Part shown: positions 24,412 to 28,795 of the stretch, one piece after another
Position numbering within the stretch: the first letter of the stretch is position 1
Layout of the letters: the number at the start of each line of letters is the position of its first letter
Source of the DNA: Nocardia sp. BSTN01
GTDB taxonomy: Bacteria > Actinomycetota > Actinomycetes > Mycobacteriales > Mycobacteriaceae
Assembly: GCF_015354405.1 (NCBI RefSeq)
Contig: NZ_JADKYP010000034.1
Location: 1-64,000 of the forward strand
Length of the DNA: 64,000 nucleotides
Reading direction: 5' to 3'
The notes under the pieces: model-generated
Told to the model about the DNA's origin: nothing
Seen by the model: the letters and a program-made list of their open reading frames with translations, nothing else
Database searches by the model: none
Translations under genes and position numbers: made by a program

Positions 24412-26430
24412 TCAGTCGGGCGGGTAGCCGTGCGCGAGTTCGGCGCGTACGGCGGCGTAGGCGGTCGACTGGCGAAATCCCTGGCGGGCCAGCATGCCGA
24501 CGAGGCGGTTGACCACCTTGTCCTCGGACAGGTTTCGCGGCATCGTGCGCAGTTTGCGGCGTACCAGTTCCGCGGCTCGCTCCGCCTCGTCGTCGGAATC
24601 AGCCGCTACCATATCCGCGTCGGCGCTGTCCTCGGCGACGTCGGCCTTCTCGGCCCGGTTCGGCTGTGGCGCAAAGGTTTGCGCGGTCGCGGCAATTTCG
24701 TCTTTCACCACGGCATACGCGATCGACTGCGGGTAACCGCGGCGGGCGAGCATGCCGACCAGCCGCGCCATGGCCTTGTCCTGCGGGATATCACGGGACA
24801 GCGATGCGAGCCTTTTCCGTACCAGCTGCGCGGCGTGCTCGGCGCCGGCTGGTGCGGATTGCCGCGACGCCGAGCCGGTCGCGGTGGAGCCGGCTCCTTC
24901 CCCGCTCCGGCCCTTTGGTGAATGTTGTTCCACTACAAGGGGATGGGAGCCGTCGGCGGGTTCGTCGCCCGCGACGTGATCTGTGTGCTGGGAGCCGTCG
25001 GGTCCACAGCTCTCGGTGGCAACTGCGGCGAGTTCGTCCTTGACGACGGCGTAGGCCATGGACTGGTTGTAGCCGCGGCGGGCGAGCATGCTGACCAGCC
25101 GGTTGATCGTTTTGTCGGCGGGGAGGTCCGGCGGCAGGGTGGTGAGTTTGCGGCGGACCAGTTCGGCGGCGCGGGCGCTTTCGTCGGCGGGAGTGATGGC
25201 GGCCAGTGCGGGCCCGGCATCGGCGTCGGACACTCCTTTACGTCGAAGTTCTTGCGCGAGAACCTTTTTCCCCTTGCCGGAGAAGGTGTGGCGGGAATGC
25301 ACCCACTGTTCGGCGAAGGCGGCATCGTCGATCAGTCCGACCTCGGCGAGGCGGTTCAGTGCCCGTTCGGCGACCTCGGGTGCGAACCCTTTGGCCGCCA
25401 GTTTGTCCGCCAGTTCGGCGCGGCTGCGCGCCCGATCGGTGAGCAAGCGCAGGCAGATGTCCTTGGCCTGTGCCTCGGTCCCCGCCTTCGGCGCGGCGGA
25501 CTGCGCGGCGTCGGAACGCTTCCCGCCGTCGGTGTCGGATCGACGCCGCGAACCCCGGCGCCCTCCCCCGTCGGCGCCGTCTCCGCGTGACCGTCTTCTC
25601 AAGCCGCGGTCGTTCGCCCCGTCGTCCGACCGCGTATACGCCACGGGGCTGTCGTCCGGATTGAACGAGCCGCTGTCACCACCCAGCGGCTGCCCCTCCG
25701 CCCGGTGGGTGCGGCCGGGCCGACGATCCCCGCCGGCACGCTCGTCCCACCCCCGCTGTAGCGCGTCGACCTCGGCCCGCAGTGCGCGAATTCGATTGCG
25801 CGCCTGGGAGTCCTGTGTCGCAGACCCTTCACCGGGACGACCGGAGATCGCGGCTTCGACACCCGCCTGTGTCCGCCCCTCAGGCCCGGAACCGTCCCGC
25901 GCCTCTAGCCCACCACGACACCGAGCGTCGAGCTCGGAACCGGACGAAACCTCCGGCCCACGACGCCGAGCATCGGGCGCGGAGCCAGAGCGCACCTCCG
26001 GCCCACCACGCCGAACCTCGGACTCGGAGCCGGAGCGAAGTTCAGGCGCACCACGACGCCGAGCATCGGGCTCGGAACCGGAGCGCACCTCCGACTCGAT
26101 GCGGGGCGGAAGCTCGGGCTCGAATACCGGCCGGTCCACGGGTGCGGATGTGTCCGTGTCATCGACCGAATCATGCTGGGGCACCGGGCCGTCATCGGAA
26201 CGCCATACGCCAGTGGGCGAATCCCCCGCTTCCGGCTTCAATCGGCGACGACGGGGCGAACGGTTCTGTCGGCGAACGGGTTTCGACCATGACTCGTCGT
26301 CCGGGTCGCCGGTGTGCCGGGAGCGGGATTCGATGTCTTCCAGTTGCCGCCGCAGGCGTTCGACGGCGTCGAGCCGAGAGGCGCCAGGGTCCGGGAGGGG
26401 TGTGGACCCCGGCGCTTCCCGGTGCGGCAT
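24412..26430 (-). CDS. recX: Giant RecX-like RecA regulator with triplicated C-terminal module
   Basis: The protein has 672 residues; typical RecX is about 150-200. The ATG at 26430 starts three bases after the recA stop. Residues 1-318 are mostly disordered, with Arg-Ser-Gly repeats (RSGSE, DARRRG) at 115-175, a helix at 208-229 and a basic RG-rich stretch. Residues 319-470 form a normal RecX core: AKDICLRLLTDRARSRAEL, GLIDDAAFAEQWVHSR, then the third helical module ending GYNQSMAYAVVKDELA. Two more copies of that module follow at 530-582 and 616-669, joined by flexible linkers. RecX caps or inhibits RecA filaments, so extra modules could lengthen contact with the filament groove. No stop or frameshift interrupts it. 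Confidence 0.93.
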   Translation of the reverse strand: MPHREAPGSTPLPDPGASRLDAVERLRRQLEDIESRSRHTGDPDDESWSKPVRRQNRSPRRRRLKPEAGDSPTGVWRSDDGPVPQHDSVDDTDTSAPVDRPVFEPELPPRIESEVRSGSEPDARRRGAPELRSGSESEVRRGGPEVRSGSAPDARRRGPEVSSGSELDARCRGGLEARDGSGPEGRTQAGVEAAISGRPGEGSATQDSQARNRIRALRAEVDALQRGWDERAGGDRRPGRTHRAEGQPLGGDSGSFNPDDSPVAYTRSDDGANDRGLRRRSRGDGADGGGRRGSRRRSDTDGGKRSDAAQSAAPKAGTEAQAKDICLRLLTDRARSRAELADKLAAKGFAPEVAERALNRLAEVGLIDDAAFAEQWVHSRHTFSGKGKKVLAQELRRKGVSDADAGPALAAITPADESARAAELVRRKLTTLPPDLPADKTINRLVSMLARRGYNQSMAYAVVKDELAAVATESCGPDGSQHTDHVAGDEPADGSHPLVVEQHSPKGRSGEGAGSTATGSASRQSAPAGAEHAAQLVRKRLASLSRDIPQDKAMARLVGMLARRGYPQSIAYAVVKDEIAATAQTFAPQPNRAEKADVAEDSADADMVAADSDDEAERAAELVRRKLRTMPRNLSEDKVVNRLVGMLARQGFRQSTAYAAVRAELAHGYPPD
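24424..24585 (-). repeat. RecX module copy 3
   Basis: This encodes residues 616-669, with AAELVRRKLRTMPRNL and NRLVGMLARQGFRQS. It is about 54 residues aligned without gaps to copies 1 and 2. Confidence 0.85.
24685..24843 (-). repeat. RecX module copy 2
   Basis: This encodes residues 530-582, with AAQLVRKRLASLSRDI and ARLVGMLARRGYPQS, followed by IAYAVVKDEIAA. DNA identity to copy 1 is visible but partial, so the duplication is not recent. Confidence 0.85.
25021..25182 (-). repeat. RecX module copy 1 (native C-terminal module)
   Basis: This encodes residues 417-470, with AAELVRRKLTTLPPDL and NRLVSMLARRGYNQS. It directly follows the RecX core and so is probably the ancestral copy. Confidence 0.85.
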
Positions 26431-26433
26431 CGG

Positions 26434-27477
26434 TTAGAAGTCGACGGGCGCCTCGGCACCCGCGTCTGCGGTGACGTCGGCACCGATGCCGAGCTTCTCC
26501 TTGATCTTCTTCTCGATCTCGTCGCGCACGTCGGTGTTCTCCAGCAGGAACTTGCGGGCGTTCTCCTTGCCCTGGCCGAGCTGATCGCCCTCGTAGGTGT
26601 ACCAGGAACCGGACTTACGGATGAAGCCCTGATCGACACCCATATCGATGATCGAGCCCTCCTTGGAGATGCCTGCACCGTAGAGGATGTCGAATTCGGC
26701 CTGCTTGAACGGCGGCGACACCTTGTTCTTGACGACCTTGACGCGGGTGCGGTTGCCCACCGCGTCGCTGCCGTCCTTCAGCGTCTCGATGCGGCGCACG
26801 TCCAGCCGCACCGAGGCGTAGAACTTCAATGCCTTACCACCCGTGGTGGTTTCGGGCGAGCCGAACATCACGCCGATCTTCTCGCGCAGCTGGTTGATGA
26901 AGATGGCGGTGGTGCCGGAGTTGTTGAGCGCACTGGTCATCTTGCGCAGCGCCTGGCTCATCAGGCGGGCCTGCAGACCGACGTGGCTGTCGCCCATCTC
27001 GCCCTCGATTTCCGCGCGCGGCACCAGGGCCGCGACGGAGTCGATGACGATGATGTCCAGCGCGCCGGAACGCACCAGCATGTCGGCGATCTCCAGAGCC
27101 TGCTCACCGGTATCGGGCTGCGACACCAGCAGGGCGTCGGTGTCGACGCCGAGTTTGCGGGCGTATTCCGGATCCAGCGCGTGCTCGGCGTCGATGAAGG
27201 CCGCGAGTCCGCCGTTGGCCTGCGCGTTGGCGATGGCGTGCAGGGCGACCGTGGTCTTACCGGAAGATTCCGGACCGTAGATCTCCACGACGCGGCCACG
27301 CGGCAGACCGCCGATGCCCAGCGCCACGTCCAGCGCGATCGAACCCGTCGGAATGACCGAGATGGGCTGATGCGCCTCCTCGCCCAGGCGCATGATCGCG
27401 CCCTTACCGAAACTCTTCTCGACCTGCGCCAGAGCGAGCTCGAGCGCCTTGTCACGGTCGTAGGCCTGTGGTGCCAT
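26434..27477 (-). CDS. recA: Recombinase RecA (no intein)
   Basis: The protein has 347 residues from the ATG at 27477 ([10 protein letters not shown]), with AAGGGGAA as ribosome site. Walker A is GPESSGKT (68-75), Walker [11 protein letters not shown], and the DNA loops follow ([38 protein letters not shown]). It forms filaments on ssDNA, drives strand exchange and triggers LexA self-cleavage. Unlike M. tuberculosis RecA, the frame has no intein. recX follows after three bases, so the two are surely co-transcribed. Two damage-responsive promoters are readable upstream. Confidence 0.98.
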
Positions 27478-27525
27478 CGTCTGTTCCCCTTCTGACGGGT
27501 AAGTCTCGTTGTGTGGTTGGCCCCC

Positions 27526-27548
27526 ACGGTAGAGGGCGGCACCGACAA
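27526..27548 (-). promoter_or_regulatory. recA P1: LexA-independent DNA-damage promoter (PafBC/RecA-NDp type)
   Basis: Read on the minus strand, TTGTCGGTG, eight bases, then TACCGT exactly fits the mycobacterial consensus tTGTCRgtg-N8-TAnnnT. It would start transcription about 40 bases before the recA ATG. Confidence 0.8.
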
Positions 27549-27560
27549 GTTCTGATGGCA

Positions 27561-27588
27561 AGCTTAGACGAACACGTGTTCGAGGCAA
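27561..27588 (-). promoter_or_regulatory. recA P2: LexA-controlled promoter with SOS box
   Basis: On the minus strand, TTGCCT (27583-27588) and TAAGCT (27561-27566) form -35 and -10 boxes 16 bp apart. The SOS box TCGAACACGTGTTCGT (27568-27583) fills the spacer and differs from TCGAAC-N4-GTTCGA only in its last base. LexA bound here would block RNA polymerase. Confidence 0.8.
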
Positions 27589-27760
27589 GCGACGCGCCCG
27601 CCGACACGCACAGCGACCGCGCAGCCGCACCCCGTGCCCGGCAATCGCCGCGTTATCCGGCCGCTCACACGCCGCGATCGCCTCGAGCTGCGGCTGTGAT
27701 CACCCCGGCGGCGCGGCCGCGATCTCGCCGGACGCGCGGCACCGAGCCGCTCTGCCACGA

Positions 27761-28795
27761 TCACCGAGTCGCCGTCGGCACCACCGCGATCCGGTCGGTC
27801 TGCATCAGCGCCTGCGCCTGTTTCAGCATCCGCAGTGTCGGCGTCACCTCCACGTCGACGATCCCGGCCAGAGCCCCCAGCCGCTCGGTGAGGTAGCGGT
27901 ACAGGTGCGAGCTGTCGCGGCAGACGATGGAGGAGACCAGATTGGTGGGCCCGGTGGTGGCCGCGACGAACGCCGTCTCCGGATGGGTCGCGATCGCCCG
28001 GCCGATGGCGTCGAGTTCGGCCGGATGCGTCCGCACCCACAGCGACGCCCGCACCGCGTATCCCATGCGCTCGACGGCGAAATCGAGATCGAAGTACAGC
28101 ACGCCCGCCGCCGTCAGCTCGGACATCCGCCGCGCGACCCGGGTTGGGCTCCAGCCGGTTTCGGCCGCCAGCCGGGCATAGGAGGCGCGCCCGTCGCGAG
28201 CCAGCAGGGCGAGCAACGCCTCGTCGGCCGCGGACAGCTCCATCGGCGCGTCGGGCCCGCGTCGATCGTTCATCGCGGGCCTCGGCCCCAGCTGTCGCAA
28301 CTGTTCCGCGGTCAGCAACCGGCTGTAGCGCGGCCACTCCTCCGCGAGCGGGAATCGGTGGATGATCTCGTAGGCCATCAATCCGGTGACCTGACTGGCT
28401 CGCGGAAGGACGTTGAGCAGCAACGCGTCTCGCTGTTCGATCGAGCGTGGGCGGCTCACGCAGGTGACCTCCGAACCGGTCGACAGCAGCGCCACCCAGC
28501 TCACGTCGGGCAGCCGCGCCAGCGATTCGGCGAGCCGCAGCGCCTTGTCCGGGGTGGACCGCACCCGCAGCATCCAGCGCGTATTCCCCAGCGGCATGGC
28601 GTTGACCTGGCCGGAGACGTGCAGGATGCCGCGTTGGCGCATCGACCGATAGCGGCGGGCCACGGTCTGTTCGGAGACACCGAGGATCGTGCCCAGGGTG
28701 GCGAACGGGATGCGGGCATCAGTGACCAAGCCGTGCACGATCTGCTTGTCGAGCGGATCGAGAACGGAGGATTCGAGTTCGTCTTCGGGGTTCAC
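27761..28795 (-). CDS. Lrp/AsnC-type regulator with two tandem Lrp units
   Basis: The protein has 344 residues. It has two HTH-plus-sensor halves: the first HTH is LDKQIVHGLVTDARIPFATLGTILGVSEQTVARRY and the second SAADEALLALLARDGRASYARLAAETGWSPTRVARRM. Each is followed by a RAM-like sensor region (LRVRSTPDKALRLAESLARLPDV; LWVRTHPAELDAIGRAIATHPE). It is divergent from an MFS exporter gene across 96 bp, the usual arrangement for a regulator of its neighbour. The ligand is unknown. The 177 bp downstream towards the recA promoters shows no gene. Confidence 0.88.
   Translation of the reverse strand: MNPEDELESSVLDPLDKQIVHGLVTDARIPFATLGTILGVSEQTVARRYRSMRQRGILHVSGQVNAMPLGNTRWMLRVRSTPDKALRLAESLARLPDVSWVALLSTGSEVTCVSRPRSIEQRDALLLNVLPRASQVTGLMAYEIIHRFPLAEEWPRYSRLLTAEQLRQLGPRPAMNDRRGPDAPMELSAADEALLALLARDGRASYARLAAETGWSPTRVARRMSELTAAGVLYFDLDFAVERMGYAVRASLWVRTHPAELDAIGRAIATHPETAFVAATTGPTNLVSSIVCRDSSHLYRYLTERLGALAGIVDVEVTPTLRMLKQAQALMQTDRIAVVPTATR

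Follow-up and report, generated by a model that had tools for sequence, protein, structure and literature searches.

The recA-recX locus

The window, by which we mean the whole stretch of 64,000 nucleotides from Nocardia sp. BSTN01 that was analysed (contig NZ_JADKYP010000034.1), carries on its minus strand a recX gene of 672 aa, read there as one open reading frame with no internal stop (Table 1). The preceding recA gene ends in TAA, which is followed by CCG and then by the ATG of recX, leaving a gap of 3 nt, and strand and frame are common to both genes. A recX gene that adjoins recA in the same orientation is a common, though not invariable, neighbourhood trait of the RecX family, and it is present here. 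Though the recA frame can be read from a GTG, its true start is likely an ATG near 27477. About 90 bp upstream of this likely start sits a palindrome resembling a LexA box, which was scored against what we take to be the LexA-box consensus; with up to two mismatches allowed, the pattern has three matches in the window against 3.4 expected, and only the position of this one favours it as a recA site. The recA-recX pair may be under SOS control. Further along the same strand, at 27761-28795, lies an Lrp/AsnC-type regulator in which Pfam recognised two AsnC helix-turn-helix stretches within one protein. A profile search of the genome itself gave one RecX_HTH2 match above the cut-off.

Table 1. 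Features of the recA-recX locus in the window; residues are numbered along the 672-aa RecX, and dN/dS values refer to the N. nova complex (nine genes)
Feature	Position	Strand	Evidence
recX gene, 672 aa, three HTH3 modules	24412..26430	-	ORF, Pfam, NCBIfam, module model
HTH3 module 3, distal, residues 617-666	24433..24582	-	Pfam, module model; dN/dS 0.15
Linker 2, residues 581-616, 36 aa, net charge -8	24583..24690	-	dN/dS 0.76
HTH3 module 2, residues 531-580	24691..24840	-	Pfam rescan, module model; dN/dS 0.27
Linker 1, residues 469-530, 62 aa, net charge -5	24841..25026	-	dN/dS 0.78
HTH3 module 1, core-attached, residues 419-468	25027..25176	-	Pfam, module model; dN/dS 0.28
RecX_HTH1 and RecX_HTH2 core, residues 319-418	25177..25476	-	Pfam; dN/dS 0.04
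N-terminal extension, residues 1-318, low-complexity	25477..26430	-	dN/dS 0.57; composition
45-bp tandem repeat, 4.0 copies, coding, within the N-terminal extension	25913..26093	-	repeat search
Short motif, probably helical, residues 20-39 (LDAVERLRRQLE...)	26314..26373	-	motif model, E 1.7e-9
recA ORF, 398 aa from GTG, in frame with recX	26434..27630	-	ORF and profile matches
LexA-box-like palindrome, one mismatch to the assumed consensus	27568..27583	+, upstream of recA	pattern search

Domain architecture of the 672-aa RecX

In the Pfam search, RecX_HTH1 (residues 322-361), RecX_HTH2 (368-406) and RecX_HTH3 (E 4.7e-24 for the whole protein) were matched in that order, all above the curated cut-offs. 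An earlier sequence-only reading had described this gene as a RecX with three copies of its C-terminal module in an unbroken frame of 2 kb, and our results agree with it on both points: a Pfam rescan resolved RecX_HTH3 into three stretches, each individually at E <0.01, and the frame is the uninterrupted one described above, for which no strand had been given. In the genome search the three HTH3 stretches reached E 7.5e-7, 2.2e-6 and 1.9e-5, and one NCBIfam RecX model (E 3.2e-97) likewise aligned in three stretches. Two NCBIfam models scored above their cut-offs, namely NF001064 (323.6 bits against 217) and NF001056 (244.7 against 237), and the remaining RecX models listed scored below their own; PRK14134 (NF010732) aligns with residues 321-566, that is, with the core and modules 1 and 2, at 52.8 bits, far below its cut-off of 351.

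The limits of the three copies in Table 1 were set with a genus-specific module model that has these same copies among its training sequences. The copies align without gaps, as the sequence-only reading had observed, and its statement that their DNA has diverged is borne out by an identity of 63-72% between copies, with longest identical runs of 19, 11 and 11 nt. It had also recognised the two linkers, for which its lengths of 57 and 31 aa have to be replaced by 62 and 36 aa, since its module limits were wider.

The N-terminal extension is probably disordered, judging from the composition pooled over the multi-module proteins. Across the N. nova complex, in nine genes among which the present one is counted, it measures 174-338 aa, and the 45-bp repeat may explain some of the variation in length between relatives. 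Within it lies a motif of the form DxVxxxRRxLxxL, which persists although much of the surrounding extension varies among the RecX proteins of the genus; a model made from 115 of these proteins, run with the permissive limit of E 0.5, matched 144 of 149. The motif is perhaps a binding peptide.

Comparison with described RecX proteins

A PDB search with an actinobacterial RecX profile, which distant chains could escape, yielded four RecX chain sequences, each from a single entry. The profile matched 3c1d, presumably E. coli RecX, at E 5.1e-6. Ordinary actinobacterial RecX, of the M. tuberculosis type, has the same HTH1-HTH2-HTH3 core and adjoins recA in the relatives examined, and 15 single-module relatives share 52-72% identity with residues 310-672 of this protein over the aligned positions. 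In the sections of the literature consulted, actinobacterial RecX is described as a protein of 171-188 aa in 15 orthologues (PMC3527212), whereas here we have 672 aa, three HTH3 modules instead of one, and an extension of 318 aa. The same sections describe E. coli RecX as three tandem three-helix repeats (PMC3527212); these are contiguous and make up the total, with no tethered copies. The long RecX of Firmicutes, with which the NCBIfam model PRK14134 is grouped here, 212-272 aa and in B. subtilis 264 aa (PMC3527212), likewise has a longer C-terminus, but its length implies that long linkers are absent.

No multi-module RecX was found described among the open-licence PMC papers listed, several of which make no mention of RecX; the sequence-only reading had likewise known of no RecX of this form. 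Length alone is not the novelty, since long N-terminal extensions occur elsewhere in the order: at the loci L283-L288, from the same order but outside the family, RecX has 477-569 aa with a long low-complexity N-terminal extension and a single HTH3.

Distribution of the modules

With the module model, the number of modules was assigned in 149 Nocardia recX genes, comprising 148 fetched recA-recX regions and the one in this window; 87 encode one module, 36 two and 26 three. Starts were taken as the first ATG, GTG or TTG from 20 nt before the end of recA onward, a rule that places the start within the conserved N-terminal motif for some single-module genes. A profile search gave an HTH3 match in 149 of the 151 genus genomes, and the remaining two (G054 and G107) gave no RecX match with this protein as query, which is likely due to assembly gaps; one of them is 99% complete yet lies in 1340 contigs. 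The closest named loci belong to N. mikamii, N. kruczakiae, N. cerradoensis, N. elegans, N. africana, N. nova and N. aobensis. Among 79 named loci, a set that overlaps the genus gene set, 58 bear the name Nocardia in their titles, of which 34 have one module, 11 two and 13 three, and the 21 from other genera all have one.

In none of these relatives was the extra region found as a separate or frameshifted gene, the arrangement that the sequence-only reading had named as one that would refute its proposal: 62 of the 149 genus genes carry the extra modules in one frame. The other frames of the multi-module loci, read from stop to stop at a length of at least 50 aa, gave three weak partial matches (E 0.0024, 0.11 and 0.38), and a frameshift, a separate gene or a leftover module is rejected on these grounds.

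Outside Nocardia, no second module was confirmed in samples of the family, order and phylum, in which weak matches could hide diverged copies. Three samples were searched with Pfam; they overlap, lie all within Actinomycetota, and for some genomes had only part of the candidates scored. The first contained 257 non-genus genomes among 309 with matches, each with one HTH3 match, many of them weak (E 0.001-0.01), so that a diverged second module could escape. In the second, 271 of 278 matching genomes were non-genus, 270 with one match and one (G1088) with two; in the third, 241 of 244 were non-genus, 239 with one match and two with two. None of these three exceptions was upheld: G1088 was rejected as a multi-module RecX because its RecX, when read directly, has one module, and second HTH3 matches in G772 and G859 were set aside as they lie in frames of 36-37 aa at contig starts. 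Direct reading of 24 further loci gave a RecX core in 22, each with one module at E <0.001. Two plasmid-borne RecX of Bacillota are annotated as coding sequences of 207 and 208 aa. A 52-kb Tsukamurella record filed as a plasmid (NZ_LR134457.1) holds recA, recX and glutamate transporter genes, and may be a chromosome fragment.

History of the array

The recA DNA tree was built from one gene with 1020 sites and 157 rows, 10 of them outgroup, two loci (L269 and L274) being omitted because their recA is incomplete. All 61 multi-module rows fall into one clade of 74 with support of 96/91; this clade also includes 13 single-module rows, and the genus rows elsewhere are all single. On the best recA tree the state changes between single and multiple six times, four of which are forced by supported branches, suggesting that some lineages can do without the extra modules or regain them easily. 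When gains and losses were given equal costs on a quick tree, a single-module ancestor of the clade was favoured by one step (six against seven, the stem gain included), and when a gain cost twice a loss, one gain with six losses became cheaper (eight against nine); parsimony thus leaves gain versus loss unsettled.

Although a module tree of 50 columns has little resolution, the nearest relative of each module in another genome was of the same class in 31/36, 28/36, 23/26, 23/26 and 21/26 cases. Modules are thus mostly closest to the module at the same position in other genomes, which indicates that the array predates many species splits. Recent copying is contradicted for this gene by the DNA divergence between its copies. 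In a few relatives, partial gene conversion within recX is suggested by identical DNA runs between modules 1 and 2, of 47 bp in L211 and 66 bp in L251, against a longest run of 23 bp in a close relative (L212). One middle module (L137) is partly degraded. All 87 single-module proteins end in an acidic C-terminal tail, with a mean of 13.7 aa and a net charge of -4.4, and the tail is short in multi-module proteins (5.7 aa, net -0.9), so the linkers may descend from the tail.

Selection on modules and linkers

Values of dN/dS were obtained as pooled Nei-Gojobori counts over related pairs and serve to compare regions, not as a significance test; the six groups cover 41 of the 62 multi-module genes, and this gene belongs to two of them. 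Besides the N. nova complex (Table 1), there are five other groups, and in these the dN/dS of every module is below that of every linker. Across the six groups the extra modules range from 0.04 to 0.36 and the linkers from 0.43 to 0.78, and the middle copies of three-module genes from 0.11 to 0.32 in four groups. The extra modules are under purifying selection and the linkers drift.

The proposal that the array is old and has been kept is supported by this pattern, together with its sharing across a clade and the closeness of most same-position copies between genomes. Two further facts alter the earlier picture: the copies are not equivalent over the genus, and module number varies from one to three with repeated switches inside the clade, which means that the array is not indispensable everywhere.

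Residue differences between copies and charge

Column 2 of the module is arginine in 87/87 single, 62/62 first, 2/26 middle and 22/62 last modules. Column 12 is arginine in 87/87 single, 21/62 first, 15/26 middle and 59/62 last modules, and column 46 is lysine or arginine in 85/87 single, 23/62 first and 58/62 last modules. When first and last modules are compared, 39 proteins retain R12 in the last alone and one in the first alone; at least one module has it in 61 of the 62 multi-module proteins. We drew ten groups from the tree, and in seven of them some or all members have lost R12 from the first module. This split is reported as a pattern, as it amounts to three independent contrasts on supported branches, too few for significance. 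It suggests that R2 may serve attachment to the HTH1-2 core, with R12 and K/R46 facing an outside partner.

In the group of 12 to which this gene belongs, nine retain R2 in the last module and ten retain K/R46 in all three, and only the shift of R12 is general. The gene itself shows the split in part: columns 2, 12 and 46 are R420, T430 and K464 in module 1, H532, A542 and K576 in module 2, and R618, R628 and R662 in module 3, such that R2 is found in module 3 too and K/R46 in all three modules.

Other basic positions persist in the majority of copies, whether first, middle or last, the 88 extra modules retaining R8 in 93%, K10 in 91%, R26 in 97% and R33 in 99%, and an alignment read by eye places R or K at these positions in the distant solved chain 3dfg also. 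The middle modules are less conserved elsewhere (R9 in 10/26, P15 in 6/26 and K22 in 16/26). The 88 linkers measure 11-180 aa and are net acidic in 86 cases; mean charges are +4.9, +5.7 and +6.0 for the modules and -5.6 for the linkers. In RecA, a comparison that does not control for phylogeny puts 4 of 340 columns above the shift threshold, two of which belong to the C-terminal tail, and a matching change in RecA was rejected because the signal is weak and confounded by phylogeny.

Interpretation of the tethered modules

RecX proteins bind RecA filaments and inhibit RecA. We hold with medium confidence that this protein is a multivalent regulator of the RecA filament, a RecX whose last three-helix module would have been duplicated on acidic, probably flexible linkers. 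The core (HTH1, HTH2 and module 1) would dock on RecA as ordinary RecX does. R8, K10, R26 and R33, the basic residues common to most copies, are retained in the distal modules, and R12 and K/R46 also in the last of them; these modules would extend outward to additional sites on the RecA lattice and bind there to adjacent protomers or to the ssDNA in the groove. The wide range of linker lengths makes a distal site at one fixed distance unlikely and fits a repetitive lattice. The acidic linkers, with a mean charge that roughly cancels the positive charge of one module, would limit stray DNA binding. The expected effect would be higher avidity and a longer dwell on the filament. The function proposed in the sequence-only reading, by which a chain of modules could span more RecA subunits or cap and bridge filaments, is compatible with these data. 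For E. coli RecX, the sections consulted give a Hill coefficient of 2.0, for which the authors hypothesise two RecX monomers (PMC9252578), and two or three tethered HTH3 modules would convert such cooperation into avidity. The sections consulted (PMC9252578, PMC4231760) treat the mode of action of RecX on RecA as unsettled between end capping, internal nicking and the trapping of inactive patches.

The main rival to the multivalent regulator is a neutral split of roles, by which module 1 docks, the last module keeps the outward role, and the total function equals that of an ordinary RecX with longer reach. We regard it as possible, on the doubtful side. The reciprocal retention over the genus, of R2 in first modules and of R12 and K/R46 in last ones, is what such a split would leave behind, and the labile module number, with single-module rows inside the clade, points the same way. 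However, a pure split would not require R8, K10, R26 and R33 to be kept in nearly every copy, selection acts on the middle copies where a gene has three modules, and the split is incomplete within this gene's own group. The multivalent reading is independent of the residue split.

We consider it unlikely that the extra modules bind DNA instead, holding ssDNA or dsDNA beside the filament, with RecX occupying vacated ssDNA or bridging DNA. The modules are strongly basic, and M. tuberculosis RecX above 500 nM is reported to mediate ssDNA folding in the sections consulted (PMC4231760). Matches to PriCT_1 (PF08708), which is a primase C-terminal family, were obtained in 19 of 40 RecX proteins at E <=0.01; in the rescanned proteins its best stretch lies on helices 2-3 of an HTH3 module, and its whole-protein score is above the Pfam cut-off in five of eight. 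No single PriCT_1 stretch passes alone, though, the score being summed over the repeated modules, and the sections of the literature consulted gave no defined DNA-binding residue of RecX. The PriCT_1 match may reflect remote relatedness to a helical domain of primases, or else a chance resemblance summed over repeats. A sequencing or annotation artefact, or a fused neighbouring gene, is extremely improbable, given that independent genomes, named species among them, share the array in frame and that selection has acted on it as on a coding frame.

The BRC repeats of BRCA2 are tandem recombinase-binding modules with disordered linkers that bind RAD51. The RecX array could tentatively be seen as a bacterial counterpart of such recombinase regulators in its layout, though not in its descent; the core-attached copy would lean to docking and the distal copies to gripping further protomers, and module number would be the valency. 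The resemblance is one of layout alone, and homology is not claimed.

The uneven retention of R2 against R12 and K/R46 suggests a division into core-serving and partner-facing residues, which is a testable prediction. Nocardia, where RecX occurs naturally with one, two or three modules, allows valency to be told apart from fold, and, if the tentative likeness to BRC-repeat regulators is true, the number of modules would set the valency of filament control.
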